Source: Atrina japonica (Eukaryota; Mollusca; Bivalvia; Pterioida; Pinnidae). Taken from it: a stretch of 64,000 nt of DNA. Position 1 is the first letter of the stretch. Each line of letters opens with the position of its first letter. Made by a program: the position numbers and the translations under genes. The notes beneath the pieces were generated by a model. That model was not told the DNA's origin. It was given only the letters and a program-made list of their open reading frames with translations, and searched no databases. The stretch is taken from assembly GCA_030159075.1 (NCBI GenBank), contig BROG01000794.1, positions 113,501 through 177,500 of the forward strand, given 5' to 3'. This document shows positions 179-57,829 of this stretch, one piece after another.

Positions 179-1282
179 AACATTAATACACATACACCCA
201 ACCATCTAATACAAGCAAATGTTGAAACAGTTCATATGTCTGATAGTTAGTAATGTTATCTTGGATACTAGAATCAAATCTTAAATATAAAAACCGTCAA
301 CAGTAATGCAATTTTGTTTTATACGCTACATAGTTAACTGATACCTTTTAAATCTATTCCATTTTGTTCATCATGTAGCTGGTGATCAGAAATGCTCAAT
401 CTGGAATATCTGTGTGCTAAACTGAAAGAGTTACAGAATAAATATATTTTTCTGAATCAAATTTAGCGAAAGGGTGTTTTGGTGGCTACTGGGAAACCAT
501 AAACGTTTTGGGTAACCAAATAGAAAAATTATTTAATATAATTACAAAATTATATTTAAAAGATAATACCTATTCAAAAGAACTGGACACTGGAGTTGAA
601 ATAATTTCTGGATCTCAATGGTGATGTCAGCTAAAGGTTGAGAAGTAAGTCATATCATTGCCCTAGTCGCATAATATATCTCAGGTGAACCCAGAAAAAT
701 GCATATAAATAACATTACAACTAAATTTACAGGTACTCCCATTAGGGTTAAAACACGCGAAATTAAATGTCTATGATTACCATAATTGATCTAAATTAAG
801 GGGTTTGATGTGGCTAGTGAATCCATAACCGTAAACAAACGGTGGAGCGGTACGGGAAAGCCCTAATCACTAAATTATCAACTCCCTTTATATTACCGAA
901 CTTGCTAAATAGGTTTTTAAATGTCGCCTGGAAGTTCTGATCAGAAAGGTCATTAAGTGTGTTTTATCATCTTTGCTATTGTCACGTCAACATACATACG
1001 AGGAAGAAGTAAAAGTATTGCAAAACATTAGAGTAGAAAGAATACATAAATGTGCATGTTGTTGGATGTAGTTCTGTCTTGATGTAAGTTATCAATAACA
1101 TGAAAGAGGACAATGTGCTCTCTGTCTAGTAACATCATTATTGTCTATCATTTTTTCTATATTTTTGAAAAACTTTAAAGTGGCTTTTCACATATTGTCA
1201 TGAGAATAGTCAACATATTATTTTCCTGTAAACTAATGTTTGTTGAATGAGTTGAACGTAACTACAGGGACACATATATCAT
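178..1282. other. No supported feature
   Basis: AT-rich unique-looking sequence without a frame, RNA gene or repeat that I can support. Confidence 0.6.
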
Positions 1283-1470
1283 AAACTTAATGCCAAAGTT
1301 ATAAAGTGCGACGAAAACAAATACTCAAGACTATCGTACCAAGCATTAAAACTTCATCGACTGAGCTCGACTTTGAAATAGATGTAAAATTCCAAAATCG
1401 AAAGTGGTATTATTAAAGGCCAATGATATACCTCAATGTATTGACCAAACGTTAAATGCATCTAAAATGT
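1283..1470 (-). repeat. Retrozyme-family relic
   Basis: A weak but ordered match: ATGCCAAAGTTATAA, CTCAAGACTATCG, AACTTCATCGACTGAGCTCG, GTGGTATTATTAAAGGCC. It is heavily diverged and the hammerhead boxes are damaged. Confidence 0.55.
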
Positions 1471-6018: not shown

Positions 6019-6240
6019 TACTAATTAAAGTATTTTTTAATAATACCAAAGATATAGTTTTACAAAAAAAAAGACAAAAAGACCAAAACAAATGCTCAAG
6101 ACGACCGTTTCTGTCAATAAGACTTCATCAGTTGAGCTCGAATTTAATATAAATGCATACTTCCGAATGCAAAAATGTGGTATCATACAAGGCTAAAAAA
6201 TAAATCTAAATATAGTGCCAAAGTAAATCTAAATGTGTTA
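6019..6240 (-). repeat. Retrozyme-family fragment inserted in a Penelope-like copy
   Basis: Family landmarks: ACCAAAGATATAGTTTTAC, AATGCTCAAGACGACC, and TGGTATCATACAAGGC. It belongs to the longer subfamily, with about 25 extra bases between ACCAAAG and ATGCTCAAG. Penelope-like RT sequence is on both sides (5795-6018 and 6241-6560) and reads through when this piece is ignored. Confidence 0.8.
6094..6137 (-). ncRNA. Hammerhead ribozyme motif in the 6 kb copy
   Basis: Minus strand: stem I GCTCAA/TTGAGC is perfect, with CTGATGA, GAAA and the GTC triplet all intact. Stem III is ACGGTCGT, one change from the palindrome seen in related copies. Core-complete despite the age of the surrounding fragment. 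Confidence 0.7.
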
Positions 6241-6714
6241 ACTGAAAACTTGTTGTCCCGGGGATTTCGGAAAGACATTTGATGTCAACGTTCAGCATTT
6301 TACGGTCAGTATGATAACAATTTTTGTAATCTCTATGTTTCACTAAATGAAATGTTGAGTTACCTGTTCGGTAGAGGTTGTTCAGTCGTCTGTACCGGTT
6401 ATAACAAGGATTAATTTCTCGCTAATTTCATTTGAATTAGACTGCGGACTCACAGATTTTGCAATCAGTCAACAGGGGATACTTTTTCTTCCATGACACC
6501 TGATACCATCTCTGGATTCCCAGTGATATGTTTTTGTCCAATATTCACCAGAGCGATTATCACAAATATTTATTATATACATGTGTAATAACACAGTTAT
6601 GACAAGGAATTCAAAACGCCTGAACAAAGATCATTAAGTCTTTTGACATCTTTATAATACATTTGTAAAAAAAATACTCCTTAACTTCACGCCCGATATT
6701 CAATAATACAGGCA

Positions 6715-6850
6715 CAATATTAAAGTTGAAGTTTTACAAAAGAGGCCAAAGAAAATGTTCAAGACGATCGTTTCTGTGAAAACGATTTCATCAGTTGAGC
6801 TCGGATTTTATATAAATGTAAATTTCCGAAGGAAAAGGTGATGACTTGGG
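6715..6850 (-). repeat. Retrozyme-family fragment
   Basis: A partial unit of the longer subfamily (AGTTTTACAAAAGAGGCCAA present). The hammerhead core CTGATGA and GAAA can still be read at 6757-6800 on the minus strand, but stem II is eroded and stem I has one mismatch. Confidence 0.7.
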
Positions 6851-7017
6851 AGATACAGGGCAAATTATGATCTTTGTGGAAAGCTAAACTGAATGGATAC
6901 CAAATGCATGTTTCCACTTCCGTACCTGTTTAGAAAAACATTGAGGTACTACAATGTATACCTATCAATATTATAAAGTCGTTCGTGAGTATCTGGAGCA
7001 CTACAATTTTTAGCATA

Positions 7018-17289: not shown

Positions 17290-19310
17290 TACAGACTTGG
17301 GCGGATACAGCGAGACGGCAAAGGGACGCGTTTTTGTCCATGACACCTAATGCCACCTCTGGATTTTCCGGAAGTCAATATATGTCGATTGTTACTTGTG
17401 TCTACGTATTGCTCTAGGGCACCAATTTCGTCGTTATAAAATGAGTATGGGCATCCAAGCTGTTAAATTACAAACGGGTTTTGCAGTGCCTAGACATAAA
17501 AAATCTTCTTCACAACACTGTCACATGTTCATTTGTATCATCTCTCTTCAAATATAATGTCGTCACCGGCGCCGTTTCTATTGTTGAAAATGAAATCTTC
17601 AAAAATCCTATTTTAAGAGGTCCTAAATACCACAAAGCCCGTTCCTTTAATTGGCGACAAAATTTAGGTTTAGTTATGAGTTCTGTCGAAGATTATGCCA
17701 GACGATGGGCCAAACATGAAGACGTGGAACCAGACACTTTGTCTGAATTGCTAAAGGCTATACGATGGTTGATAAAATATCGTATTCGAAAACTTAAAGT
17801 AACTATGAAAATACGTTATCCCTCTGTTTGATAAGAATTATGGTAATCCTTTATACACACGTAGCTCACTTTCAAAGGACGAGATCCTTCAAAATTTCGT
17901 GTCCGTATTACGATCTTTTGGTGTACCTACAAACGATACTGATTTTGAGCTACCATACCATATTTTATACCTCAACTTCATAAAACCCCATATAAACAGA
18001 AGTACATAGCAGGATAGAGCAAATGTTCTACCAAACCTTTATCTCTACTTCTTACCAAGATATTGACAGCCGTTAAGCAGAAACTTCAGCAAAATTGTAC
18101 AGTTGCTTATTCTAGAAGCGGTGTAATTCGGATGTGGATACTTAAAAATTCTAAATAACATTTAGAAAATTTGAGGGCACACGATTTTTCTCAAATTCAC
18201 AGTATCAAAACATATATCTCTACTATTTACACATTCCACATAAAAAATTAAAAGAAAAACTTTATACCATCATAGACAACTGTTTTTTTCACTAAAGGTG
18301 GTACCCAAAAATTTAAATATGAAGTGATTGGTTATCATGATACTTATTTTGTCAAAAACCATTCTGATTCTACACATAAATACGCTAAAGTTGATATAAA
18401 AAGATTCTAGTAGACGATATATTTGTAATGTTCGGAGACGTGGTTTTTCAACAAACTGTCGGCATTTCTATGGTAACCAATTGTGTCCCTTTATTGGCTG
18501 ACCTGTTCCTTTATTCCAACGTGGCAGACTTCATTTAGAAACTTCTAGATCATAAGAAGAAAAAGCTAGCGGTGTCCTTCAAGTTGACATTTAGATATAT
18601 CGACGACGTTTTGTCAATTAATAATGACAATTTTCATACACATATCAATGCGATATATATCCCAGCGAAATTAAAGATACAACAGAATCAAGCACACACG
18701 CTTCATACTTAGACATTTTACTTACTAAAGACACAGACGGGATATTGGCATCTAAGGTATACGAAAAACGCAACGATTTCGGCTTTCCCATCGTAAATTT
18801 TCTACATTTAAGTAGTAATATCCCACATTCATCCGCATATGGAGTTTATATTTCACAAATGATCGGATATGCCAGTGCGTGTTCAACATATGAAAATTTC
18901 ATATGCAGATGTAAACTTCTCACTGACAAATTATTGACGCAGGGATATCGAAAACCGCGTTTGATGTCAACGTTCCGCAAATTTTATGGTCGGTATAAAA
19001 AAGTCTTCTTTGCAATTAATCTATTTCACCAAGTGAAATGTTGAATTGACTTTCCGTTGACGGTTGTTGAAACGTCTGCACCAATTGTGACGAGGATTCG
19101 TTCCTCATGTATTTCATTTAGACTTGACTGTGGACTCACGGCAGGTGTAGCCAGTCGAAAAGGAATCTTACTCCCCCATGACACCTGATCCCACCTCTTG
19201 ATTTCCAGAGGTCCGTGTTTGAACATTTTTACCAAATTTTTATCTATGTCCTGGACATCCTAAACGATTTATAATTTGGTATCTGAGATCTTTTATAGAT
19301 GTATATCATT
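17290..19310 (+). pseudogene. Penelope-like retroelement, long degenerate copy
   Basis: This is the longest RT-bearing copy. An open frame of 116 codons at 17481-17831 holds the conserved N-terminal region (RGPKYHKARSFNW, YARRW, RWLIKYRIRKLK). Then come broken frames with KCSTKPLSLLLTKILTA, FQQTVGIS and the catalytic RYIDDVLS box near 18590-18620, then a C-terminal frame at 18745-19044 (KRNDFGFPIVNF, SSAYGVYIS, FRKFYGRY). It ends in the family 3' tail (CCTGATCCCACCTCTTG, then TCCTGGACATCCTA). The role of an intact protein would be target-primed reverse transcription. A tail-like stretch at 17330-17420 upstream suggests a head-to-tail or terminal-repeat arrangement. Several stops and frameshifts make it non-functional. 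No GIY-YIG endonuclease is visible in this copy. Confidence 0.85.
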
Positions 19311-19344: not shown

Positions 19345-19990
19345 AATATTATTACAATGCGAAATTTATAGTTTTACCAACAAACAAAAAAGAAATTCTC
19401 AAAACGACTGTTAATGAGACTTTATCTGTTGAGTTCGAATTTGATATAAATGTACTAAATTTCCGAAAGTAAAATGGAGTATCATACAAGTCCAAATGAT
19501 AAATCCAAATGTATTGTCAAATCCGTCTAAAAGTATTCACTGTAAAAATATAACTATCTTAGCGTTTGTGAAGTTTAGAATTTTAATGGTGCAATCCAAG
19601 AGAAATATTACTTCAGTATAAAATGATAAGCTGGTTCAGATATGTTGAATTTATGTATACTCTCGGGGACTCAAACGGTCCACTAGCAGTGGAAACGGCC
19701 CAGTGGTTATAAATGTTATTAATAATACCAAAGTTATAGTTTTAGAAAAGAGACCAAATCAATGCTCAAGACGATCATTTCTTTCAATAAGACTTCAGCA
19801 GTTGGGCTCATTTTTAATATGAATATGTATTTCCGAAAGTAAAAAGTGGTGTCGTACAAGGCCAAATAATAAATCTTAATGTATTACCATTTTCTTCTAA
19901 GAGCACTCACTGTAAAAAATATGACTATCTTATGTTTTAAGAAGTTTAGAATTTGAATGGTGCAATCCGAGCAAAATAGTGAATACAGAA
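19345..19990 (-). repeat. Retrozyme-family dimer, degenerate
   Basis: Two head-to-tail units. Landmarks such as CTCGGGGACTCAAACGGTCC and GGTGCAATCC recur with about 360-bp spacing, about 40 bp after the 3' end of the large Penelope-like copy. Both hammerhead cores are mutated (CAGATAA in one, CTGCTGA in the other), so no self-cleavage is expected. Confidence 0.8.
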
Positions 19991-22274: not shown

Positions 22275-22664
22275 TTGAGCATTATAACTTTGGCATTATG
22301 TTTATAATATTTATAACCACTAGGTCGTTGCCACTGCTTTTGGACCCTTTGAGTCCCCGAGGGTATACATAAACGTAGTACCTGATATTTCGCTACCAGC
22401 TGTTCATCTTATATTAAAGTAATATTTGGCACTATTAACACTATTTAAATTCGAAAATTGTCTAAAGGTAAAATAGTAATTTTTTTACTCTTAGACGGAT
22501 TTCGGCTATACTTTTAGAGATATTATTTGACCTTGTATGATGCCACTTTATCTTTAGAAAATACACATACTTCTCAAATTGGAGCTCAACTGATGAAGTC
22601 TTATTGACAGAAACGATATCGTCTTGATCATTATAACTTTGGTATTATGTAAATAATATTTATC
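22275..22664 (+). repeat. Retrozyme monomer, plus orientation, slightly over unit length
   Basis: The same family as the 39-41 kb array but a single copy in the opposite orientation. It begins TTGAGCATTATAACTTTGG, exactly the sequence 3' of the predicted hammerhead cleavage site. It runs 349 nt to the next cleavage site (after 22623), then continues about 40 nt into a second copy of its own beginning before homology ends. The bases before 22275 do not match the family, so its 5' boundary coincides with the self-cleavage position. Directly after it lies a copy of the 270-bp dispersed repeat (22680-22950). Confidence 0.85.
22584..22629 (+). ncRNA. Hammerhead ribozyme motif, dispersed monomer
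   Basis: Plus strand: stem I GCTCAA (22584-22589), CTGATGA (22590-22596), stem II GTC/GAC, GAAA (22610-22613), stem III palindrome ending in GTC (22621-22623), then TTGATC. Stem I has one mismatch (TTGATC for TTGAGC). All core residues are present. Confidence 0.78.
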
Positions 22665-23474: not shown

Positions 23475-24262
23475 TCTAATATTATTGAGAGGGGGACTTC
23501 ATAATGTTTAACAAGATCCACGTATCGACCATAGAACTTCTTAAACGACGATTTCAAGCGTTCAACAACGTAACCTTGTGTACGTAGTTTATTGGCGAGT
23601 CGTTTCGCTCTCGGAATAAAACATTCATAAGACGAGCATGCCCTGGCATAGCGTATAAGTTATGAAATGAAAACGCCATAGGCAGGAGAAGATGGAATAT
23701 TACTACCTAGAAATGGGAAGATCGTGATATGGAAATTGAAATCGTCGCGTTTGTCATAAAGGGAGGTGTAAAGTTGACTGTCCTTTCCAGTCGACAGGAG
23801 TAAATATAGGTAAGAAACAGACGTGTTGCTCTCTGTCGTCTTATTGATCTCTAGCTCAACAGGATATATCTGACCGACACAATTCTGAAATTCTGAATTA
23901 TTTATGGACAAGTAGTCGTCGATATACCTCTAAGTAAAATTAAATTGAGATGAAAACTGTTTGTTTCCTTTGGATATCAGAGACTGTATAAATTCCGCTT
24001 CGTATGAATACAAAAAGATGTCAGTCAAAAGAGATGCACAATTGGTACCCATTGGAATGCCGACAATCTGTTGGAAAACTTTTCCCGCAAACACCACGAA
24101 TATGTTGTCCACCAAAACCCCCAGAATCTTGATAATATTGTTCTCAGTGTACTTGTTATTGGAATCAGAGTGTTTCTTTACAAAATAAGGTTCCTCATTT
24201 TTATTTTTGTATACAAAGGAGGTTTGTATAATAGATGTTAACTTGTTTGTCAAATTAGTAAT
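23475..24262 (-). pseudogene. Penelope-like retroelement, central/C-terminal RT fragment
   Basis: Minus-strand frames at 24253-23930 (YFVKKHSDSNNKYTE, VFQQIVGIPMGTNCASLL, EAEFIQSL) and 23911-23660 (IYPVELEINKTTESN, LYDKRDDFNFHI, SSPAYGVFIS), then LIRYARACSSYECF and KSSFKKFYGRY down to about 23480. A frameshift falls at the catalytic YIDD region. It is truncated at the 5' side just upstream of a TAG at about 24267. It is divergent from the 17 kb and 51 kb copies (KRDDFNF rather than KRDDFGF), so it is a different subfamily. Confidence 0.82.
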
Positions 24263-26919: not shown

Positions 26920-27623
26920 GTGGAACACCAAAAAATAATTTTTGTCGGCGACCCTTCCCCGAGTACACAGAGAATAGAACACCAAGCATTGATTCTTGTC
27001 GGCGACCCTTCCTCGAGTACACAGAGGATAGAACGCCAAACTTTAATCATTGTCGGCGACACTTCCCCGAGTACACAGAGAATAGAACACCAAGCATTGA
27101 TTCTTGTCGGCAACTCCTCCCGGAGTACACAGAGGATAGAACACCAAGCATTGATTCTTGTCGGCAACTCCTCCCGGCGTACACAGAGGATAGAACACCA
27201 AGCATTGATTCTTGTCGGCAACTCCTCCCGGAGTACACAGAGGATAGAACACCAAGCATTGATTCTTGTCGGCAACTCCTCCCGGAGTACACAGAGGATA
27301 GAACACCAAGCACTGATTCTTGTCGGCAACTCCTCCCGGAGTACACAGAGGATAGAACACCAAACTTTAATCATTGTCGGCGACCATTCCCCGAGTACAC
27401 AGAGGATAGAACACCAAGCATTGATTCTTGTCTACGACCCTTCCCCGAGTACACAGAGGATGGAACACTAAACAATAATCATTGTCGGCGACCATTCCCC
27501 GAGTACACAGAGGATAGAACACCAAACTTTAATCATTGTCGGCGACCATTCCCCGAGTACACAGAGGATAGAACACCAAGCATTGATTCTTGTCTACGAC
27601 CCTTCCCCGAGTACACAGAGGAT
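26920..27623 (+). repeat. Minisatellite, 54-bp unit, open in several frames
   Basis: Thirteen units of ACACCAAGCATTGATTCTTG, TCGGCAACTCCTCCCGGAGT, ACACAGAGGATAG. Because 54 is a multiple of three, long frames appear on both strands (plus 26920-27471; minus 27374-26898, 27363-27043 and 27346-27047), each an 18-residue repeat. There is no signal peptide, splice signal or similarity to support translation, so I treat these as by-products. Confidence 0.9.
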
Positions 27624-28312: not shown

Positions 28313-28710
28313 TGTGTTATAAACAAAATACCAAAGTTATAATGCTCACGACTATCGTTTCTATCAATTAGACTTCACCAGTTGAGCTCCAATTTTGGAC
28401 AGATTTTCTAAAGAGAAAGTGGTATCAGACAAGGCCAAATAATAAATCTAAATGTGTAGCCAAAATCCGTCCAAGAGTAGCCAATGTTAAAAGATGGTTA
28501 TCTAAGTTTTTAGAAGAATTTAGAATTTAAATGGTGCTATCAGTGCGAAATATTACTTTAGTATAAGATTATTAGCTGGTGCCACAATACCAGGTTCTAG
28601 GTTCATGTGTACTCTCGGGTACACAAACAACGATCCACCAGCACTGGCAACGACCTGGTCATAAATGTTGTAAACATAATGCCAAAGTTATAATGCTCAA
28701 AACGATATAT
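28313..28710 (-). repeat. Retrozyme-family monomer, degenerate
   Basis: A full unit plus the start of a second (ACCAAAGTTATAATGCTCA near 28330, then GCCAAAGTTATAATGCTCAA near 28680). The hammerhead core is changed to CTGGTGA. It begins immediately after a (TA)n/(GT)n microsatellite. Confidence 0.8.
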
Positions 28711-30249: not shown

Positions 30250-30368
30250 AATAGTACCAAAATTGTAGTTTTACAAAATGACTATCTTAGCTGTTGAGAA
30301 CTTAAGAATTTTAATGGTGTAATCCGTGCGAAATATAACTTTAGTATTACATAATCAGCTGGTATCGC
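30250..30368 (-). repeat. Retrozyme-family unit, left part (split by a Penelope-like fragment)
   Basis: It carries ACCAAAATTGTAGTTTTAC, GACTATCTTAGC, and the stretch up to CAGCTGGTATCG. The unit stops there and a Penelope-like RT fragment follows. The unit resumes near 30572. Confidence 0.7.
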
Positions 30369-30374
30369 AAAACA

Positions 30375-30570
30375 AGGTTATATTTTGTAATGTTTGGAGA
30401 TCAGGTCTTTCAGCAAACTGTTGGCATTCCAATGGAAACAAATTGTAACCCGTTTTGCTGACCTGTTCCTGTTCAGAATTCACACGGAAGCTTCTGAATC
30501 AAAGGAATAAGCTAACGGTAGCCCTTAATTTATATCGACGACGTTTTGTTTTCATATGTAAATGTCATAT
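30375..30570 (+). pseudogene. Penelope-like RT fragment nested in a retrozyme unit
   Basis: GTAATGTTTGGAGATCAGGT, TTTCAGCAAACTGTTGGCAT and TATCGACGACGTTTTG match the FVMFGD..FQQTVGI and YIDDV blocks, with internal deletions. Retrozyme sequence abuts it on both sides. Confidence 0.7.
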
Positions 30571-30571
30571 A

Positions 30572-30965
30572 TCCCAAACCCCTCGAAAGGTCCACCAGCA
30601 TTGGCGACACCCCAGTGATTATAAATATTATTAACAATACCAAAGTTATAGTTTTACAATAACGACCAAACGAAGTGCACAAGAGGGTCCTTTCTGTCAA
30701 TAAAACTTAGCTAGAATTTGATACAAATGTATATTTTCGGAAATTATTATACAAGGCTAAATAATAAACCTAAATATATTCCCAAATCTGCTTAAAAGTA
30801 TCATACTGTAAAACGATGACTATTGTTAGCTTAGATTTTGAGACGTTTAGAATTTAAATGGTGCAACCCAAGGGAGATATTACTTAATTTTAAATTATCG
30901 GACTCGTACCAGATATTAGGTGTAGGTATATGCAACTCTTTAGGTTCTGTCTGGAAATGGTGTAT
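30572..30965 (-). repeat. Retrozyme-family unit, right part plus a second unit
   Basis: It resumes at CCTCGAAAGGTCCACCAGC (family: CCTCGGGGACTCAAACGGTC then CACCAGC). It continues through the ACCAAAG junction into a second degenerate unit. The hammerhead core is not preserved. Confidence 0.7.
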
Positions 30966-31034: not shown

Positions 31035-31950
31035 TGATAGTACTTGTTAACTTATCAGTACTGATTGTGAACAGTATTATTACTGATTTGTAATCTGTAG
31101 TACTCGTTAACTATCTTAACCGATTGTGAACAACTGTAGTACTCGTTGACTATCTAAACTGATTGTGAACAGTGTTATTACTGATTTGTTCATTATTTGT
31201 AATCTGTAGTACTCGTTAACTATCTAAACCGATTGTGAACAGTGTTATTTCTTTTTTTTTAATCTGTAGAACTCGTTAACTGAGCTGTACCGATTGTGAA
31301 AAGTGTTATTACTGATTTGTAATCTGTAGAACTCGTTAACTGTCTAAACCGATTGTGAACAGTGTTATGTCTGGTTTGTAATCTGTAGTGCTCGTTAACT
31401 GAGCTGTACCGGTTGAGAACAGTGTTATGTCTGGTTTGTAATCTGTAGTGCTCGTTAACTGAGCTGTGCCGGTTGTGAACAGTGTTATGTCTGGTTTGTA
31501 ATCTGTAGTGCTCGTTAACTGAGCTGTGCCGGTTGTTAACAGTGTTATGTCTGGTTTGTAATCTGTAGTGCTCGTTAACTGAGCTGTGCCGGTTGTGAAC
31601 AGTGTTATGTCTGGTTTGTAATCTGTAGTGCTCGTTAACTGAGCTGTGCCGGTTGTGAACAGTGTTATGTCTTGTTTGTAACCTGTAGTGCTCGTTAAAT
31701 GATCTGTACCGGTTGTGAACAGTGTTATGTCTTGTTTGTAATCTGTAGTGCTCGTTAACTGAGCTGTACCGGTTGTGAACATTGGTATGTCTTGTTTGTA
31801 ATCTGTAGTGCTCGTTAACTGTCTAAACCGATTGTGAACAGTGTTATGTCTTGTTTGTAATCTGTAGTGCTCGTTAACTGAGCTGTTCCGGTTGTGAACA
31901 GTGTTATTTCTTATTTGTCTCTTATTTGTAATCTGTAGTACTCGTTAACT
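31035..31950 (-). repeat. Minisatellite, 60-bp unit
   Basis: About 15 units of GTTATGTCTGGTTTGTAATC, TGTAGTGCTCGTTAACTGAG, CTGTGCCGGTTGTGAACAGT. Central units are almost identical and the edges are diverged. A 148-codon minus-strand frame (20-residue repeat, Thr-rich) is a consequence of the 60-bp period. Confidence 0.9.
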
Positions 31951-31954
31951 ATCT

Positions 31955-32090
31955 AGCATGAGATGCTTACTTTTTCAATGCACGTGATCCCAACTCTGGA
32001 TTTCCCAAAGGATCATGTTTGTCATGTTTGTAAGTTTTTTACGGACTTCGTTAAAACTTTGGGATCTGAATTCATATTAATAGCGGATAA
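31955..32090 (+). mobile_element. Penelope-like tail, degenerate
   Basis: GAGATGCTTACTTTTTCAAT, ACGTGATCCCAACTCTGGAT and ACTTTGGGATCTGAA follow the tail order. It abuts the end of the 60-bp minisatellite. Confidence 0.55.
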
Positions 32091-34700: not shown

Positions 34701-35618
34701 TTAGCGATGTCACCATCGTAGTTTTTCAGACCGAAATTGTTGTTACTAACAGTTACAATTGTTCATTGTTCGATGACGTCATAATAGCGTCGGACGGTAG
34801 CAATTATCATTTACAGAATTATATTTATAAAATGATTAATTTTTGTTAAGTTTTGTGTCGTAAATTTTTATAAAATAATATTGTTTTGCTTTTCTCAGAT
34901 CTTCGTCATTATTCCATATTTTTAAGAAAGGAAAAAAATTAAATTTTCCTTTTCCGCAAATGGCAAAATGTTTCGGACACTTGGCTCTCTGATTTGTTGT
35001 TTATGGACTGTTACTCTTGCGTTTAGTTTTCTAGGTCGTACAATGTAATTTTCCTCGCATGTCGGACATGTTGCGCAATATATGATATTTAGCGATTCAC
35101 AGTCATGGTGGCATTTGCCTGCAATGTTTTTTCCAGTTTTTATAATTAATTTCCCCCCTTTTTCGATGTAATCACATGCTCCGCAACGAGGATCTCAATA
35201 CTTTTGAACCTGATTTATTTCTTTTGGTGAGAATTTAACCCGAATAATTTAGTCAATATATATTTCACTTACTTTGTTCACTACATTACGCTTGAGGACC
35301 CTGGACGTAAAAGGGCGCTGTAATTATTCGACTTGCTCTTGTTTTTTTCAGGTTCAGTGGTTGTCGTCGGCTATTAATTATGTATGATTTGCTAAATAAT
35401 TTGTAAATATTTTCCGACAGTTTCAAAATTGGGAAGAATCATTTTGCAGCATATAGCATACTATGGCTCAGTAGGTGTGGGTTATCGTTTTATAAATATA
35501 ATTCTGTAAATGATAATAGCTACCGTCCAACGCCATCATGATGTCATCGAACAATGAACAATTTTATCTTCTTAACAACAGTTTCCATCTGGAGAACTAC
35601 GTTGGTGAAAGCGCTAAC
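34701..35618. mobile_element. 0.9 kb element with long inverted arms around the nuclease remnant
   Basis: The left arm (34701-34836) and right arm (35484-35618) are reverse complements at roughly 80%, for example TTGTTCATTGTTCGATGACG against its complement near 35550, and ATTTACAGAATTATATTTAT against the stretch near 35490. The interior is about 650 bp. Inverted terminal repeats are known for some Penelope-like insertions; a foldback DNA transposon is the alternative. Confidence 0.6.
34922..35194 (-). pseudogene. GIY-YIG / zinc-finger endonuclease remnant
   Basis: A 90-codon open stretch on the minus strand without an ATG, preceded by an in-frame TGA. It shows CGACDYI, then GKCHHDC (Cys/His cluster), IIYCATCPTCEENYIV, and LNARVTVHKQQIREP. 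This is the layout of the C-terminal nuclease of Penelope-like elements: a CCHH-type finger, a GIY-like motif, a YIG-like motif (here YIV, so a key Gly is lost) and the LxxRxxxH helix with its Arg kept. It would nick target DNA for primed reverse transcription. No RT is attached. It is flanked by inverted arms at 34701-34836 and 35484-35618. Confidence 0.6.
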
Positions 35619-38324: not shown

Positions 38325-38690
38325 CCGAAATCACATTATTGTGTTAAACCTAGTTTTTCACAGATAAACTTAGTTTTTCTCCAGTTGAAGATAGTTTTTC
38401 TCAGTTAAACCATGATTTTCTCCAGTTAATGTGGGTTACGATTTAAACCTAATTTCCCCCTAGTTAATCCTAATATTTCTCGTAACCCAAATTAACTGGA
38501 GAAAAACTGAGTGTTAACATTTATCACTCAGATTTTATAACATTAATCACAGTTAACAATCGGGTTTTGGTGCAGTTAACACTCAGTTTTTCTCAGTTAA
38601 CACTCAGTTTTTGGCACAGTTAACACTCAGTTTTTGGCGCAATTAACACTCAGGTGGTTTTCTCAGTTAAACTTAGTTTTTCTCCAGTGG
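38325..38690. repeat. CTAG-module foldback repeat, second copy
   Basis: Same module set as 56-57 kb (GTTAAACCTAGTTTTTCACA, CCAGTTAATGTGGGTTACGA, CTGGAGAAAAACTGAG). Here many modules read CTCAG in place of CTAG, a local variant that has spread (GTTAACACTCAGTTTTT four times). Confidence 0.8.
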
Positions 38691-39225: not shown

Positions 39226-39383
39226 TCGGGGACATATTAATGTTTTTTATTCTATTTAAAGATAACATAGTGGTGCATTACCTGATATGTTTTTTCAAAC
39301 TTGGCATATTGTCAAAATACCTTAAATGGGCGTTTCCCAGTAATATTTTGTAAATATTATAAACATAATACCAAAGTTACAAT

Positions 39384-39429
39384 GCTCAAGACCATATCGT
39401 TTCTGTCAATTAGACTTCATCAGTTGAAC
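39384..39429 (-). ncRNA. Hammerhead ribozyme motif, array unit 1
   Basis: Core boxes CTGATGA and GAAA are intact. Stem I keeps five Watson-Crick pairs plus one G-U pair (GTTCAA with TTGAGC). Stem III carries one change (ATATGG in place of ATATCG), which breaks the palindrome, so this copy is probably weaker than units 4-6. Confidence 0.7.
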
Positions 39430-40453
39430 TCCAATTTGAAAAGTATGTGATTTTTTCTAAAGATAAAATGGTATCATACAAGGCTAAATAATATCTCTAA
39501 AGTTATAGCCGAAATCCGTCTAAGAGTGTCCACTGTAAAAAATGACTATCTTAGCTTTAGAAAGATTTTAGAATTAAAATGATGTTAACAGTGCCAAATA
39601 TTACTTTAGTATAAGATGAACAGCTGGTACCGAAATACCAGGTACTAGGTTTATATATACCCTCGGGGACTCAAACGGTCCACCAGCAGTGGCAACGACC
39701 TAGTGGTTATAAATATTATAAACATAATAACAAAATTACAATGCTCAAGACGTTATCGTTTCTGTCAATAAGACTTCATCAATGAGCTCCAATTTGAAAA
39801 GTATGTGATTTTTTCTAAAGATTAAATGGTATCATACAAGGCCAAATAATATCTCTAAAGTTATAGCCGAAATCCGTCTAAGAGTAACCACTGTTTGACT
39901 ATCTTAGCTTTAGAAACATTTTAGAATTTAAATGGTGTTAACAGTGCCAAATATTACTTTAGTATAAGATGAACAGCTGGTACCGAAATAACAGGTACTA
40001 GGTTTATATATACCCTCGGGGACTCAAACGGTCCACCAGCAGTGGCAACGACCTAGTGGTTATAAATATTATAAACATAATACCAAAATTACAATGCTCA
40101 AGACCATATCGTTTCTGTCAATAAGACTTCATCAATGAGCTCCAATTTGAAAAGTATGTGATTTTTTCTAAAGACTAAATGGTATCATACAAGGCCAAAT
40201 AATATCTCTAAAGTTATAGCCGAAATCCGTCTAAGAGTAACCACTGTAAAAAATGACTATCTTAGCTTTAGAAACATTTTAGATTTTAAATGGTGTTAAC
40301 AGTGCCAAATATTACTTTAGTATAAGATGAACAGCTGGTACCGAAATACCAGGTACTAGGTTTATGTATACCCTCGGGGACTCAACCGGTCCACCAGCAG
40401 TGGCAACGACCTAGTGGTTATAAATATTATAAACATAATACCAAAGTTACAAT

Positions 40454-40499
40454 GCTCAAGACGATATCGTTTCCGTCAATTAGACTTCATCAGTTGAGC
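40454..40499 (-). ncRNA. Hammerhead ribozyme motif, array unit 4
   Basis: On the minus strand: stem I 5' arm GCTCAA (40499-40494), core CTGATGA (40493-40487), stem II GTC/GAC with loop TAATT, core GAAA (40473-40470), stem III palindrome ACGATATCGT, and triplet GTC with predicted cleavage between 40460 and 40459. The 3' arm TTGAGC (40459-40454) is a perfect complement of the 5' arm. The 10.1/11.1 pair is A opposite G, non-canonical, so activity may be weak. The loop-poor palindromic stem III is typical of Penelope/retrozyme hammerheads that work best as dimers. Confidence 0.8.
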
Positions 40500-40813
40500 T
40501 CCAATTTGAAAAGTATGTGATTTTTTCTAAAGATTAAATGGTATCATACAAGGCCAAATAATATCTCTAAAGGTATAGCCGAAATCCGTCTAAGAGTAAC
40601 CACTGTAAAAAATGACTATCTTAGCTTTAGAAAATTTTTAGATTTTAAATGGTGTTAACAGTGCCAAATATTACTTTAGTATAAGATGAACAGCTGGTAC
40701 CGAAATACCAGGTACTAGGTTTATGTATACCCTCGGGGACTCAACCGGTCCACCAGCAGTGGGCAACGACCTAGTGGTTATAAATATTATAAACATAATA
40801 CCAAAGTTACAAT

Positions 40814-40859
40814 GCTCAAGACGATATCGTTTCCGTCAATTAGACTTCATCAGTTGAGC
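40814..40859 (-). ncRNA. Hammerhead ribozyme motif, array unit 5
   Basis: Identical in every base to the motif in the preceding unit, 360 bp away. It has the same 6-bp stem I, CTGATGA and GAAA boxes, palindromic stem III and GTC cleavage triplet. The identity points to recent amplification or homogenisation of the array. Confidence 0.8.
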
Positions 40860-41172
40860 TCCAATTTGAAAAGTATGTGATTTTTTCTAAAGATTAAATG
40901 GTATCATACAAGGCCAAATAATATCTCTAAAGTTATAGCCGAAATCCGTCTAAGAGTAACCACTGTAAAAAATGACTATCTTAGCTTTTGAAAATTTTTA
41001 GAATTTAAATGGTGTTAACAGTGCCAAATATTACTTTAGTATAAGATGAACAGCTGGTACCAAAATACCAGGGACTAGGTTTATGTATACCCCCGGGGAC
41101 TCAAACGATCCACCAGCAGTGGCAACGACCCAGTGGTTATAAATATTATAAACATAATACCAAACTTACAAT

Positions 41173-41218
41173 GCTCAAGACGATATCGTTTCCGTCAATT
41201 AGACTTCATCAGTTGAGC
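41173..41218 (-). ncRNA. Hammerhead ribozyme motif, array unit 6
   Basis: Same motif as units 4 and 5, with core boxes and stem I intact. The unit it belongs to is cut short about 70 bp further on, at the inverted junction near 41284. Confidence 0.8.
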
Positions 41219-41283
41219 TCCAAATTGAAAAGTATGTGATTTTTTCTAAAGATTAAATTGTATCATACAAGGCCAAATAAAAT

Positions 41284-41403
41284 TGTCTAAAGCTAAGATA
41301 GTCATTTTTTTACAGTGGTTACTCTTAGACGGATTTCGGCTATATTTTCAGAGATATTATTTTGCCTTGTAAGATACCACTTTTTCTTTAGAAAATACAC
41401 ATT
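41284..41403 (+). repeat. Inverted partial retrozyme unit at the array edge
   Basis: The last array unit stops inside its conserved GGCCAAATAA stretch. It is followed directly by about 120 bp of the same unit in the opposite orientation (TCTAAAGCTAAGATAGTC, then CTTAGACGGATTTCGGCTAT, then GTATTTTCTAAAG read backwards). The result is an imperfect palindrome between the array and the presumed EMX 3' end. Confidence 0.8.
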
Positions 41404-41709: not shown

Positions 41710-41874
41710 CTAGTGTTCATCGTCATTGGAATCCGATTGGTCAAGATTGCTGTCAAGTGGTTCGTGCTTTCTATAACCAGATCCCCCTGGTTGATCGTCA
41801 GATTCTTGATCAGAAGATTCATCGGTTTTCACTCTTTTGAACTTTGTTCTGCGATTCTGGAACCAAACTTTTAC
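41710..41874 (-). CDS. EMX: EMX/empty spiracles homeobox gene, last coding exon
   Basis: Read on the minus strand, an acceptor (ttacag at 41880-41875) is followed by an open frame of 54 codons ending in TAG at 41710. It begins VKVWFQNRRTKFKRVK, the third helix of a homeodomain, with W48, F49, N51 and R53 intact. It continues the frame of the exon ending at 46414 exactly (LTETQ|VKVWF). After the homeodomain there is a short acidic, Ser/Asp-rich tail (ESSDQESDD, then DQSDSNDDEH). EMX proteins are nuclear DNA-binding regulators of anterior and nervous-system patterning. The tail lacks the basic linker I associate with vertebrate EMX, so this is an invertebrate form. Downstream there is no AATAAA, only ATTAAA-type hexamers near 41472-41499 (minus). 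The EMX assignment is strong; which paralogue it is cannot be decided from this exon. Confidence 0.93.
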   Translation of the reverse strand, partial: VKVWFQNRRTKFKRVKTDESSDQESDDQPGGSGYRKHEPLDSNLDQSDSNDDEH

Positions 41875-43218
41875 CTGTAAAATATAATCAGTATTAATTG
41901 CATTCTACATGGTATATTACAACATGATAAATCAAGGTAAAATACAACTAATGCTATGAGAGTAAATAATACTGTATTAATACTTATCAGATACATGTAT
42001 AGGTTTATATCTGATTGTGCACGTGTCTGTTTAAAATTGCTAATTGATATATGACACTTCCTTTACCTTTGTAAATTCATTTCAATCTTTTTTCTGTTTC
42101 TTTCTTTCTCTATCTCCCTTTCATATTTTCTTTTTAATTCTTACATACGGTTTCTCTCTTTCTCTACAATGAATTATCTTCGCTCGAACGATGTATTGCG
42201 TCTGCATTCATGTATGATTTAATATGATTTCTTTTTATAAACGCTAACAAATATATCTGCTAAATAAGTAGTCCCAGTCGGGTATCTCGGTTGAAGAATG
42301 AATATGGTGTTTTTCTCGTATAATCCAGGCTTATTTGGGTTTTTTAACCTCATAATTTGAGTTATAAATCATCGTAATTTGATAACCCTTATAATAACAA
42401 ATCTAAAATTCGTGCCGGTGAATGTTTAACACCGTACGTTGAATAAATCACTCCACAAAGAACCCCTGACGGAAACTTAATGTGAAATTAAATGGATTAT
42501 ATTTTACCTTAAATAGAGTTTTTGCCGTATTATTATTGAACATACAGATGATTTTTTGATACTCTATGAATTGGAGAACTATAAGTATGGTGCTAATATT
42601 CCAGGGTGTGAAATACTTTTTTTCTAATTTCAATTACTTCATGTGGTTAAGAATATTGAAAGCCATACCCTTGACAATTAGTGCTGAACACCAAATCCTA
42701 TAAATTTTGTATATGGGGATTATTTTGACATAAATTTCTCCATAACAAGCAATAATAAAACTGATGGCCCAGGGTAATCTCTGAATCCATCATATACAGT
42801 GATGATATACTTAACGCTGGGTGAGAATGTAATTGAATATTTAAGATATGTCATTTAATCTAAATACCACTACTTAATCCTGAAATCAACCATTCATGCA
42901 ACATTCTGATGTAAAGAAATGCGGTATGTTGCATCGGTCAATCAAGTTAGCTCAGCTGTTATAAACATCAGAACTAATGTTGTATGCTACCCTATTACAA
43001 ATGTATTTATATATTTATTTCCAGATATACTGAATAATCAATTATTGACAACAACGTTTCTTTCTCCGAAAATCAGGAGACAGTAGCGGTATTGCCTTAC
43101 AATATTGCCCCTCAACGGTCGTTTAATTTGCTTCAAAATATGTAGTTGCATTTGAATGAAATTTGATTACAATTTTCAATTTTGTTAAATCGATGTTGCT
43201 GTTATATTATTATAATTG

Positions 43219-46080: not shown

Positions 46081-46413
46081 AAATTTATGATAACGACGAG
46101 TATATACATAATAAATGATATGAAATATGGAACTTTCAATGAAAATAGATAATAATATAAAAAATATAGATAAGAGTCACTAATACATAAAATAATAAAG
46201 AACAGGTTAAACACAACTTTTTCTTGAATTGTTTTCGTAAAATGTGCATAACATGTTTGTTTTGGAAACTATATTTTTCTTTAAGTTCAGAATTTAGATA
46301 TTTTCTTTAAATGAGTTTTATTTATATTCATAATAATTATTAATCTGAGTAAGACTAGACTACGTCTATTTATATATTTTTATATAATTTTCTCTACATC
46401 AAGAATTTGATAC
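41875..46413 (-). other. EMX intron between homeodomain codons 44 and 45
   Basis: This 4,539-bp phase-0 intron has donor GTATCA (46413 downwards) and acceptor TTACAG (41880-41875). Apart from an (ATT)n tract near 43220-43250 and a (GAT)n tract at 46035-46080 it carries none of the mobile elements that fill the rest of the window. That is unusual for its length here and compatible with regulatory content. I see no reading frame of note in it. The 45,000-45,300 stretch is less AT-rich than its surroundings and is the most likely place for a conserved non-coding element, but that is inference. Confidence 0.85.
46035..46080. repeat. (GAT)n microsatellite in the EMX intron
   Basis: 15 GAT units, about 330 bp downstream of the EMX internal exon. 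Confidence 0.95.
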
Positions 46414-46586
46414 CTGTGTCTCTGTTAGGTTGAGTTTCACTGCCAGATCTTTTCGTTCCTGTCCTACAACGTAATGGTTCTTCTCAAATGCATGTTCAAG
46501 TTTCAAGAGTTGAGACGGGGAAAACGCTGTTCTTATTCTTTTTGGCTTTCTATATGGGTGATAAAAAATGCTGGTGTCTGGATGAC
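46414..46586 (-). CDS. EMX: EMX/empty spiracles homeobox gene, internal exon (homeodomain helices I-II)
   Basis: On the minus strand a strong acceptor (pyrimidine tract tttcttttcttgtcag, ending at 46587) precedes a 173-nt exon that starts in phase 1 and ends in phase 0 at CAG|gtatca. The 57 full codons contain a pre-homeodomain stretch ([12 protein letters not shown]) and homeodomain residues 1-44. [19 protein letters not shown] followed by NHYVVG and LTETQ is the EMX/ems signature. The exon stops exactly between homeodomain positions 44 and 45, an intron position shared by many homeobox genes. The ATG at the exon edge is formed by intron sequence and is not the start codon. The missing first exon should encode the N-terminal EMX motif. 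I looked for it upstream on the minus strand to 64,000 and did not find it. Confidence 0.95.
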
Positions 46587-46744
46587 CTGACAAGAAAAGA
46601 AATGTAAATAAGAATTCGTTTGTGTAAATGTAGGACAGTTACCAAGGACTGTAGTTATTTTGAAGTACAGATTAAAACTGAAACAGAAACAGTAAAACAA
46701 CCAAACAACAACTACAAGAACAACAACAACAAGAACAACAACAA

Positions 46745-48549: not shown

Positions 48550-49225
48550 CATAATGTGTGAAGATAATTATCTTTTCCCTGTACAAACGAACCTTATGTA
48601 TGAGAATGAGACTACCCTTCCTCTTTCTTACAAACGACATTATGTATCTATATGAGACTATCCTTCCTCTTTTTACAAACGAACATTATGTATGTAGATG
48701 AGACTATCCTTCCTCTTTCTTACAAACGACCATTATGTATGTAGATGAGACTATCTTTCCTCTTTTTACAAACGACCATTATGTATGTAGATGAGACTAT
48801 CCTTCCTCTTTCTTACAAACGACCATTATGTATGTAGATGAGACTATCCTTCCTCTTTTTACAAACGAACCTTATGTATGGGAATGAGATTATCCCTCCT
48901 CTTTCTTACAAACGAACATTATGTACGTATATGAGACTATCCTTCCTCTTCTTACAAACGAACCTTATGTATGGGAATGAGATTATCCCTCCTCTTTCTT
49001 ACAAACGAACATTATGTATGTATATGAGACTATCCTTCCTCTTCTTACAAACGAACCTTATGTATGGGAATGAGACTATCCTTTCTCTTTCTTACAAACG
49101 AACATTATGTATGTAGATGAGACTATCCTTCCTCTTTTTACAAACGAACATTTTGTAAGTAGATGAGAATATCATTCCTCTTTTTGCAAACAAACCTTAT
49201 GTATGTAGATGAGACTATCCTTCTT
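48550..49225 (+). repeat. Minisatellite, 46/47-bp unit with dimeric order in the middle
   Basis: About 14 units of ACAAACGACCATTATGTATG, TAGATGAGACTATCCTTCCT, CTTTCTT. Between about 48840 and 49100 units alternate (GAACCTTATGTATGGGAATG with GAACATTATGTATGTATATG), giving a 93-bp higher-order period and a spurious 92-codon frame. Confidence 0.88.
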
Positions 49226-50279
49226 CTTCCTCACAGATTATATAGACAGAATAGTTCCTTATTCTCTCCAATTTGATAATAAAAGGACCTAATGAGTCTA
49301 GGTTTCATTCCATGTCATCCCAAGAGTTTGATAAAAATATTTGATGGAAAGGTACAGATTTCAAAATTATATTATAGTTAGTTATTGCGCTGAGGTCTAT
49401 TGAAAAGTATGTATGGCCCAAGTCAATTTGTGATAACTCTGGGTTATCTGCTGATTCAGTTTACAATATCGATAGTCACCAAAATCTTTAAATACATCAT
49501 TGTTGTAGGTTGGTGGAGTAATTCTATCATATCCACCATGGAGCTGGAAAATCTTTTGAAATTACTTATTGCGTTGATATTTACTTGCCAAAGGCAACCC
49601 ACCACTGAAAGACCTCATCTTGAAACTGATGACCATCTATCATTTGTGACTATGTGACCTATGTTTCGTACCAAATTAATTCCTAACTCTTTTGTCATAA
49701 TTTTGTACACAGGGATACCCAAAGCATATGTATTTTGACGATTTAAAAGAATTCAACTATAAAATATTTTCAGAAAAAATTAAGGTTATTTTTAAGGCTT
49801 TAATCTCTATTTTAACTCTATTTTAATTGACTAAAGAATGGCTTTTTAGATTGCATTTTAACCTGACTTAGACGAAAACTACGTTTGCTTGTTGATAAAT
49901 CTGGGCAAATAGATTGGACCGTACAAGACATGTGCCAATACCTTACTCCAAGGAATGCAATGCTGAAAATGCGTCAAAGCTATCATGTGACAGAATGTCT
50001 TTGTTTGGGTTAGACGGGTCGACACAGAATATCAATACCTCGGTGGTACCTGGTCCACCTATGCATTCTTGTCTCATATTCAATTCATCTTATACTATCT
50101 GGTAGACAGTTTGATATAGGTTAGTTTTCTAGTTATTTTTTCTATTCGTAGTACGCCATAGTATATTTAGAAAAATAATATTTTCATGTTTCAAAAACAC
50201 ACACATATTTAGTATAATTTTTTAAAATTTATATAGATAGCCAATTGTTTAAATCTACAATTTTTTTATCGTATTAATC
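49226..50279. other. No gene supported
   Basis: Frames at 49400-49657 and 49914-50105 (GLDGSTQNINTSVVPGPP) are slightly protein-like but unrecognised and lack splice support. Confidence 0.4.
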
Positions 50280-51789: not shown

Positions 51790-53100
51790 TTGTATCAAGT
51801 TGAATGTCAAGCAAATGTTCTACCAAACCTTTATCTTTACTCCTTACCAAGATATTGACAGCCGTTAAGGAGAAACTTCAACAATACTGTACAGATGCTT
51901 ATTCCAAAAGCGGTGTAAATCAGATGTGGATACTAAAAAATTTTAAACAGCTTTTAGAAAATTTAAAGGCACACAATTTTTCTCAAATTCACAGTATCAA
52001 AACATATGACTTCTCTACTCTTTACACAACTATTCCACATAAAAAATTAAAAGAAAGACTTTTTAGCATCAAAGACAACTGTTATTTCACTAAAGGTGGT
52101 ACTCGAAAATTTAAATATCTAGTGATTGGCTATCAGAATACTCATTTTGTCAAACACCACTCTGATTCTACACATAAATAAACTGAAGTTGATATAAAAA
52201 ACATGCTGGAATTTCTAATAGACAATATATTTGTAATGTTCGGAGAAGTGGTCTTTCAACAAACTGTCGGCATTCCTATGAAAACCAATTGTGCCCCTTT
52301 ATTGGCCGACCTGTTCCTTTATTCATACGAAGCAGACTTCATTCAGATACTGCTAAATCAAAAGAAGAAAAAGTTAGCGGTGTCCTTTAATTTGACATTT
52401 AGATATATCGACGACGTTTTCTCAATTAATAATGACAATTTTCATACATTTGTCAATGCAATGTATCCCAGCGAACTAGAAATTAAAGATACAACAGAAT
52501 CAAGCACACACGCTTCATACTTAGACATTTTATTTAATATAGACACAGACGGGATATTGGCAACTTAGCTATACGACAAACGCGACGATTTTGGCTTTCC
52601 CATCGTAAATTTTCCACATTTAAGTAGTAATATCCCTCAGTCACCTCAGTCATATGGAGTTTATATTTCCGATCCGATATGCCAGGGCGTGTACAAAATA
52701 TGAAGATTTCATATACAGAGATAAACTACTCATTGACAAATTATTGACACAGTGATATCAAAAACCGCGTTTAACGTCAACGTTCCGCAAATTTTATGAT
52801 CGGTATAATAGTATTGTTTGCGATTACTCTGTTTCACTAAGTGAAATGTTGAGTTGCCTTTTCGTTGGCGGTTGTTGAGACGTCTGTATCAATTGTGAGG
52901 ACGATTCACTATTCACGTATTTCACTGGACTTGACTCTGGACTCACGGAGGGTGTGACCGATCGACAGGGTATGCTTACTCCTCCATGGCACCTGATCCC
53001 AGGTTTCAAGAGGTTTGTGTTTGTCCATTTTTACCGGATTTGTATCTATGTCGTGGACATTCTATTGATTTATACTTTGGTATCTGAGATTTTTTATATA
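51790..53100 (+). pseudogene. Penelope-like retroelement, 5'-truncated, least decayed copy
   Basis: It starts abruptly inside the conserved SSKCSTKPLSLLLTK block and reads in one frame to 52568 with a single stop (TAA at 52179-52181, where relatives have a Tyr codon). A second stop (TAG at 52566-52568) stands where relatives have Lys, and the frame continues beyond into LYDKRDDFGFPIVNF before shifting. Visible RT landmarks: YDFSTLYTTIPHKKLK, FQQTVGIPMKTNCAPLLADL and the catalytic RYIDDVFS. The tail with ACCTGATCCCAGG and TGTCGTGGACATTC ends near 53100, and a (TA)n tract begins 50 bp later. It is nonfunctional but young. It lies in what is probably EMX intron 1, on the opposite strand. Confidence 0.88.
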
Positions 53101-53146
53101 TCTTCCATAAATATAATTTAATAATTGAAATCATTGAAAAGTAGAA

Positions 53147-57440: not shown

Positions 57441-57444
57441 AAAA

Positions 57445-57829
57445 CTACGTTTTTTATTGTAAACATAAAACCAAGTATAGTTTTGCTCACGAAGATTGTT
57501 TCTGTCTATTTGACATCAAAAGTTGAACTCAAATTTAACATAAAAGAAGAGTTTCAAAAAAAAAAAAATGGTATCATATAAGGTAAAAAATAATAAGTAT
57601 ATTCCTCCTAAAAGCAACCGCTGTAAAAGATGACTATTGTAGCCAATGAGAAGTTTTAAATTTAAACGGTATTATTCATCCGAAATATTACTTTGGTAAC
57701 AATAATGAGCTAGTACCGAAATACCAGTTACTGGGTTTATATATACCCGTCGGTTGTTAATACCTTAAACATGTTACCAAAGTTATAGTTTTGCAAATAG
57801 AACAACGCCAAAACAAATGTGCAATACTA

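Follow-up and report, generated by a model that had tools for sequence, protein, structure and literature searches.

Results

A tandem array of hammerhead-bearing units lies downstream of a homeodomain gene

The locus described here lies in a window of 64,000 nucleotides from the genome of the bivalve Atrina japonica (contig BROG01000794.1, positions 113,501 to 177,500; coordinates below are those of the window), where a minus-strand tandem array carries a hammerhead-like motif in every unit, as expected of a retrozyme. Alignment to a tandem consensus placed the array at 39348-41295 and resolved 5.44 units of ~359 bp, and Tandem Repeats Finder (TRF) reported 39351-41292 with a period of 359, 5.4 copies and 96% matches. 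The first-pass annotation, made from the sequence alone, had drawn the array at 39345..41285, which holds for its location but not for its exact edges. The array and its parts are as follows.

39348..41295, minus strand: focal insertion, 5.44 tandem retrozyme units (TRF, alignment to tandem consensus)
39384..39429, minus strand: hammerhead-like motif of unit 1, CTGATGA, one stem I wobble, A.A at positions 10.1/11.1
39743..39787, minus strand: hammerhead-like motif of unit 2, TTGATGA lesion, A.A
40096..40140, minus strand: hammerhead-like motif of unit 3, TTGATGA lesion as in unit 2, A.A
40454..40499, minus strand: hammerhead-like motif of unit 4, A.G at 10.1/11.1
40814..40859, minus strand: hammerhead-like motif of unit 5, A.G
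41173..41218, minus strand: hammerhead-like motif of unit 6, A.G
41278..41402, plus strand: inverted partial unit, positions 179-304, abutting the array 5' edge

All six hammerhead-like sites ([C/T]TGATGA...GAAA) that had been annotated at 353-360 bp spacing were found again on the minus strand, with first bases at 41212, 40853, 40493, 40135, 39782 and 39423 and spacings of 359, 360, 358, 353 and 359, and the motif order (open stem I, CUGAUGA, GAAA, GUC) is present once per unit. Four sites carry CTGATGA, and the remaining two (39782 and 40135) share the TTGATGA lesion noted earlier and have, in addition, both lost 1 nt from stem I. Units 4-6 are indeed identical across the motif. Of the four stems I previously described as intact (GCTCAA/TTGAGC), the one at 39423 reads GTTCAA and contains one wobble pair. 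In stem II an extra purine on either side replaces the canonical G10.1-C11.1 pair, giving A..G in units 4-6 and A..A in units 1-3. When units are numbered from the base right after the predicted cleavage site (between GTC and TTGAGC), the focal insertion has its 5' edge at 244 and its 3' edge at 42, and the inverted partial unit (positions 179-304) adjoins the 5' edge head to head. The array has a GC content of 0.337 and contains no stop-to-stop frame of at least 110 aa. Any two of its five full units differ at 10-22 columns of the alignment, more than in several other arrays of the family (0.6% between units in L002, 0.4% in L087). This contradicts the earlier description of the array as recently homogenised and, as a point against reading it simply as one insertion, gives it a later history of its own.

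Homeodomain pieces (Pfam PF00046) were found on the minus strand at 41713-41904, just under the cut-off, and at 46402-46638; from their split and sequence we take them to resemble the emx gene. The array lies ~420 bp downstream of the stop codon of this homeodomain gene and has the same orientation, which would allow its transcription by read-through.

The array is one locus of a dispersed repeat family

A profile built from the array found eleven more matches in the window, on both strands, and the copies below were delimited.

22275..22663, plus strand: dispersed retrozyme copy, 89% (blastn), with its hammerhead-like core at 22590 and its 3' end at position 40 of the unit
28317..28708, minus strand: dispersed retrozyme copy, 81%, adjoining a (TA)n run
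19394..19978, minus strand: old retrozyme copy, 1.6 units
57455..57753, minus strand: old retrozyme copy, 71%, 3' end at unit position 35
6079..6248, minus strand: old retrozyme copy inside a copy of the reverse transcriptase (RT) element described below (RT matches at 5785-6022 and 6241-6540, which meet at element position 3660/3662)
6747..6875, minus strand: old retrozyme copy, hammerhead-like core at 6794
30582..30932, minus strand: old diverged retrozyme copy, with a further piece at 30273-30377
1276..1449, minus strand: old diverged retrozyme copy

The genome (832 Mb, 2347 contigs) was then searched. A unit query returned 3049 first-look candidates, of which 40 were scored; the core pattern CTGATGAN{0,2}GTCTN{4,13}GAAACG matched 8431 times and its reversed control twice, so that the motif occurs well beyond chance; and a 34-mer from the middle of the unit matched 1565 times, with none for its control. 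The focal array is one locus of a repeat family dispersed in thousands of copies. One further array, at C257:133838-138202 (L020, L030), is composite, with several rearranged units and other edges. Two unit motifs had no matches in IMG/VR, and sequence strings of the mussel and window repeats had no match in literature text.

Other repeats occupy parts of the window. A ~20-bp repeat (GTTAAACCTAGTTTTTCTC) runs at 38343-38684 and 56084-57452; at 56-57 kb it stands in both orientations, forming potential hairpins, and is the source of sub-threshold matches to a plant microRNA model. Letters similar to it also flank the retrozyme locus L081. Minisatellites lie at 26923-27623 (54 bp), 31134-31955 (60 bp) and 48582-49235 (46/93 bp).

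Insertions share a 3' edge and differ in their 5' edges

Insertion edges were read at 90 loci, sampled non-randomly by contig order and by motif or similarity, which gave 75 distinct insertions after 15 had been dropped for a 3' flank identical to that of another. The 3' edge fell at unit positions 32-49 in 66/75 insertions and at 36-43 in 57/75. The wider range held for each way of sampling (18/21 for the best unit matches, 25/29 for the motif pattern, 23/25 for the 34-mer), and the narrower one held across identity classes (18/21 at an identity of at least 0.96, 27/38 at intermediate identity, 12/16 below 0.90). Two of the nine exceptions (L042 and L079) carry an internal deletion, past which they end at 36 and 41. 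Conversely, the 5' starts of the 66 insertions with the fixed 3' edge were uniform over the unit (Kolmogorov-Smirnov p = 0.23). Sampled insertions ranged from 0.3 to 5.4 units. Those of the motif sample with the fixed edge (25/29) measured 98-1421 bp, and their lengths showed no step at 359. A fixed 3' edge combined with free 5' edges points to reverse transcription that starts at a fixed point and stops at random, and not to DNA circles or unequal exchange. As this start lies ~40 nt past the predicted cut, a linear cleaved monomer would supply only ~40 nt of template, so the template must cross the cleavage junction, either as a circle or as an uncut multimer.

Units within one insertion also resemble each other. 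At six diagnostic sites, which were selected for differing between insertions, mismatches numbered 38/487 within one insertion versus 640/1241 between insertions; at non-diagnostic sites, units differed by 3.1% within and 5.1% between insertions. Full concordance at the diagnostic sites was found in 17/23 multi-unit insertions, as expected for copies of one circle, while the other 6/23 were discordant, which speaks against such an origin.

The hammerhead-like motif keeps its core and lacks the canonical stem II pair

The stem II pair was read in 112 motifs from three locus samples that keep TGATGA, the stem II frame and GAAA. Positions 10.1/11.1 were A.A in 96, A.G in 6, C.A in 6, G.A in 2, U-A in 1 and A-U in 1; the canonical G10.1-C11.1 pair closing stem II occurred in 0/112 motifs and the canonical spacing likewise in none. 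The canonical pattern CTGATGAGTCN{3,9}GACGAAACN{3,16}GTC had no match in the 832-Mb genome. According to Perreault et al. 2011 (PMC3088659), the 10.1/11.1 pair is the most conserved apart from A15.1-U16.1, and U.U is the best tolerated mismatch.

Stem III is a short palindrome, with an older form ACGATCGT and a younger form ACGATATCGT. Other animal hammerheads are reported to act as dimers (PMC7229834, PMC7761336), an arrangement to which such a stem would be suited, and by this analogy the motif may do the same. TGATGA and GAAA were kept in 37/45 covered motifs of the 34-mer sample and broken in 8/45. In the same sample (27 insertions), the 51-nt motif block had an identity of 0.963 compared with a mean of 0.931 over 275 windows avoiding the 34-mer, and the windows reaching this value were six, the motif block and five overlapping ones; the bins adjoining the 34-mer (41-60 and 81-100) score 0.98 and are only partly testable.

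Several results count against a functional ribozyme. The covariance-model search proposed with the first-pass annotation returned no hammerhead from Rfam, neither at gathering scores nor at E up to 10, and the stem II closing pair is non-canonical throughout the family, so the four motifs that had been called intact are so in their core letters and doubtful as whole hammerheads. The circular fold of the consensus unit was no better than that of shuffles (z -0.33), and there was no covariation in 26 motifs hand-picked for diversity out of 100 unique ones. In a pooled conservation table of all samples and the old window copies, the motif window ranked 95th of 359 and region 56-110 first, although this table is biased by sampling, as one sample was drawn by the 34-mer inside that region. 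Overall, conservation of the motif is mixed evidence, and the motif is best described as a predicted self-cleaving RNA, with cleavage itself inferred from its sequence.

These results bear directly on an alternative in which the element is mobilised through RNA but its hammerhead is dead and circles have no role, the RT copying long uncut array transcripts from the same fixed start. Such a scheme would account for the A.A at 10.1/11.1 in 96/112 motifs, in the pair reported as most conserved apart from 15.1-16.1 (PMC3088659), for the lack of an Rfam match and for the 8/45 broken motifs, and it has a precedent in Anolis, where hammerhead mutants of a Penelope-like element (PLE) retain insertion and the RNA used is mainly unprocessed (PMC11167929). 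It does not readily explain why, in a sample drawn independently of the motif, the motif block is the most conserved part beyond the sampling region (an effect weaker in the pooled table), or why units are concordant within 17/23 insertions. We regard it as unlikely, though a serious contender.

A telomerase-like reverse transcriptase element accompanies the retrozyme

The window's RT fragments are members of a family that has 27260 first-look candidates in the genome, 150 of which were scored, and open frames of up to 782 aa. Two pieces in the window can be placed on this element, both reaching its 3' tail, and a third on a related element.

51807..53104, plus strand: 5'-truncated RT-element copy, 93% to L091, ending at the 3' tail (CTTTGGTATCTG...)
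17451..19297, plus strand: RT-element copy, 85-87% to L091, ending at the 3' tail
23571..24198, minus strand: piece of a related RT element, 67% to L091

Short RT fragments gave only weak unrelated Pfam matches until longer relatives were scanned, some of which contain Pfam RVT_1 (1/4 above the Pfam cut-off), and one relative is named as a reverse transcriptase of the bivalve Pinctada imbricata. A Foldseek search with a model of the 782-aa L091 frame placed telomerase RT at all of PDB ranks 1-11 (best E 1e-4) and the R2 retrotransposon at rank 44, whereas a PDB sequence search with an RT relative found no relevant match. The element is therefore probably Penelope-type, a label that rests on this fold match and on the general features of such proteins.

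Against this assignment, the 782-aa model is weak (mean predicted local distance difference test score, pLDDT, 49; telomerase template modelling scores, TM-scores, 0.15-0.34), although its RT core models better, and the Pfam scan of the 782-aa frame showed a weak RVT_1 and no endonuclease, GIY-YIG included. The hammerhead pattern was absent from the one RT-element copy read, and blastn gave no match of it to the retrozyme unit below E 1.5. Endonuclease-deficient PLEs are described in PMC3846280, so a missing GIY-YIG does not exclude a PLE. A separate 90-aa stretch at 34925-35194 (minus strand), without a Pfam match, resembles the GIY-YIG endonuclease of Penelope-like elements, and an endonuclease-bearing PLE family may also be present in this genome.

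Like the retrozyme, the RT element has a fixed 3' end. Among 42 blastn pieces of it from the window and loci, counted after pieces reaching past 4200 had been left out, 24 have their end at 4029-4051 and each a start of its own, and no piece ends farther on; the remaining 18 probably stop short through splits, nesting or divergence. Its tail motif matched the genome 14075 times (reversed control 0). Inverted units beside the RT-element copies in the window were considered as terminal repeats and rejected, as they look like separate, sometimes nested, insertions with edges of their own.

Retrozyme and RT element resemble each other modestly at the tail and occur fused

The RT element ends in ...ATACTTTGGTATCTGAGATTTTTATAT and the retrozyme in ...TTATAACTTTGGTATTATGTTTATAATATTTA. 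When the two were compared, the retrozyme tail scored best on the RT element at the element's 3' end (31), the RT-element tail fitted the unit best at windows starting at 351-354 and ending at 32-35, and a shared 10-mer within 4 nt of equal distance was found in 1/2535 element windows (0.9-1.1% of shuffles). Weighing against a specific likeness, the antisense RT element scores 29 versus 31, 219/20000 shuffles reach the score, and in 357/40000 double shuffles a 10-mer is common to both within 4 nt, this tolerance having been set after the 10-mer had been seen. Taken alone, the tail likeness is modest and suggestive.

Fusions of the two elements were also found. A pattern of RT tail followed by retrozyme motif in the same orientation matched the genome seven times, compared with none for the reversed control and ~0.06 expected from density arithmetic, and the retrozymes at these loci are 5'-truncated. 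In six of the seven, the RT part runs to the ATAT end (in some with a substitution) and the junction lies within -5 to +6 nt, although longer spacers were allowed; the seventh, C419, is without the full RT tail. The junctions of C58 and C98 are similar and may be non-independent. A further fusion occurs in L016 with a 3-nt spacer, and L023 has a spacer of ~30 nt. Inverted tail-to-tail neighbours also occur, with 5 matches against ~2.2 expected, which tempers the fusions as evidence, yet at this ratio mere neighbourhood explains little of the same-orientation excess. The fusions would fit template jumping by one enzyme, the alternative being nested insertion at exactly that border, and on these grounds the RT element is the likely source of the partner enzyme.

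Another RT, from a long interspersed nuclear element (LINE) or another PLE family, might instead move the retrozyme, the tail likeness and fusions then reflecting two abundant AT-rich families that land next to each other. The likeness reaches only p ~0.01 by shuffling, inverted neighbours exist too and nested insertions are seen (L076 and L085), all of which would suit this explanation. Chance adjacency is harder to reconcile with seven same-orientation fusions, six of them at the 3' border of the RT element, where ~0.06 are expected, with inverted neighbours only ~2-fold above expectation, and with the combination of a fixed 3' end and free 5' ends in both families. We consider a different enzyme improbable.

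Target sites show no regular duplication

No regular target-site duplication was found, with 5/73 testable insertions above the 99% null, and the two strongest signals (L029 and L033) resemble insertions into tandem-repeat targets. Near the junction, 20/66 insertions have direct repeats of 5-9 bp, compared with ~10 expected from mismatched pairs, and some short target duplications are possible. Junction composition revealed no preference, no target motif and no AT enrichment. Empty-site comparison of three retrozyme insertions inside RT-element copies gave a 1-nt gap (window, 6 kb) and overlaps of 3 bp (L085) and 5 bp (L076). L076 and L085 occupy the same place inside RT-element copies with near-equal 5' starts (295 and 296), and represent either a single insertion that was copied along with its host element or a site that was hit more than once.

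This lack of a regular duplication, target motif or junction AT enrichment, together with the absence of a visible endonuclease domain in the RT element, is what would be seen if cDNA were made elsewhere and captured at DNA breaks instead of being target-primed. That route seems about as improbable as a foreign enzyme, given that the excess of 5-9 bp repeats (20/66 versus ~10) may reflect some target duplication and that a known PLE relative nicks and extends target DNA (PMC11167929). The spread of an ordinary satellite by unequal exchange or DNA circles, with the hammerhead letters a relic, could draw on the tandem array, the lesion common to two units and the divergence of the focal units, but is hardly credible when 66/75 insertions have a fixed 3' edge and a free 5' edge, since DNA circles or random breakage would leave both free or linked.

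Discussion

The interpretation that we favor, with moderate confidence, is that the array represents one insertion of a ~359-bp retrozyme spread by a telomerase-like, probably Penelope-type, RT whose template is an RNA predicted to cleave itself and probably circular, copied from ~40 nt beyond the predicted cut. Retrozyme transcripts would be cleaved at the hammerhead-like motif and joined into circles, and the RT-element protein would bind the tail (TTATA.CTTTGGTAT...TTTATA) on the retrozyme RNA. Reverse transcription would then start at the 3' border of the tail, proceed round the circle one or more times and stop at random, and the RT may sometimes jump to another RNA. The first-pass reading of a retrozyme-type element on the minus strand is backed by anatomy, copy number and insertion structure, and its suggestion of dependence on a Penelope-like RT is strengthened by the fused junctions and by the telomerase-like RT element, whose 3' end is fixed.

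Animal non-LTR (long terminal repeat) retrozymes are AT-rich, non-coding, multicopy tandem repeats of 150-450 bp, and their target duplications, when present, exceed 4 bp. Those of Mytilus galloprovincialis are likewise ~350-390 bp repeats with one type I hammerhead, low GC and thousands of copies, and are expressed as circular RNA (Cervera and de la Pena 2020, PMC7229834). Unlike those of Mytilus, the elements described here mostly have A.A as the stem II closing pair, with the canonical pattern absent from the genome, and their fixed 3' edge has no counterpart described in the main text on the Mytilus retrozymes (PMC7229834). The same text does not settle the enzyme responsible for moving animal retrozymes or the role of circles as template, and names PLEs as a strong candidate. 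Among the matches listed in a literature search for retrozymes and target-primed reverse transcription, only LTR elements appeared.

A closer parallel for the start site is the Poseidon-type PLE of Anolis carolinensis, which likewise has a hammerhead followed by a 'tail' tied to internal RT starts, a template that crosses the hammerhead site and a telomerase-like RT; it starts reverse transcription internally, downstream of its own hammerhead, which explains the PLE 'tail' (Frangieh et al. 2024, PMC11167929). Its hammerhead cuts only when protein is present and is dispensable for insertion in vitro (PMC11167929). In Anolis, however, the hammerhead lies inside the RT element, whereas here hammerhead and RT are on separate elements, and the Anolis PLE has a GIY-YIG endonuclease that cuts AT-rich DNA, whereas no endonuclease domain was found here. 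Penelope elements of Adineta vaga similarly show 5' truncation, partial tandems and head-to-head inverted 5' pieces such as that at 41278-41402, but those elements are coding, and an 8-10 bp duplication accompanies some of them (PMC3846280).

By analogy with these systems, the present one looks like a retrozyme laid out as a PLE is, with hammerhead, tail and start in that arrangement, that coexists with a telomerase-like RT element whose tail is similar. LINEs and short interspersed nuclear elements (SINEs) provide the familiar case of a non-coding element that uses a borrowed RT by virtue of a common 3' tail. SINEs, however, are linear RNAs without a ribozyme, while retrozyme copies here pass one unit without a step.

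A broader formulation, which we offer tentatively and rate short of an even chance, would make animal retrozymes tail parasites of an endonuclease-lacking telomerase-like retroelement, whose RT starts 40 nt past the cut, rolls round circular RNA and pastes any number of units, with the ribozyme a novel hammerhead variant that is assisted by protein and has A.A at the opening of stem II. Independently of this formulation, the insertion edges leave a footprint that points to a fixed internal start on an RNA that crosses the cleavage site, and both a candidate enzyme and a start site can be named for the retrozyme. A hammerhead that keeps its core but has lost the most conserved pair of stem II in a family of thousands of copies would extend the known tolerance of this ribozyme.

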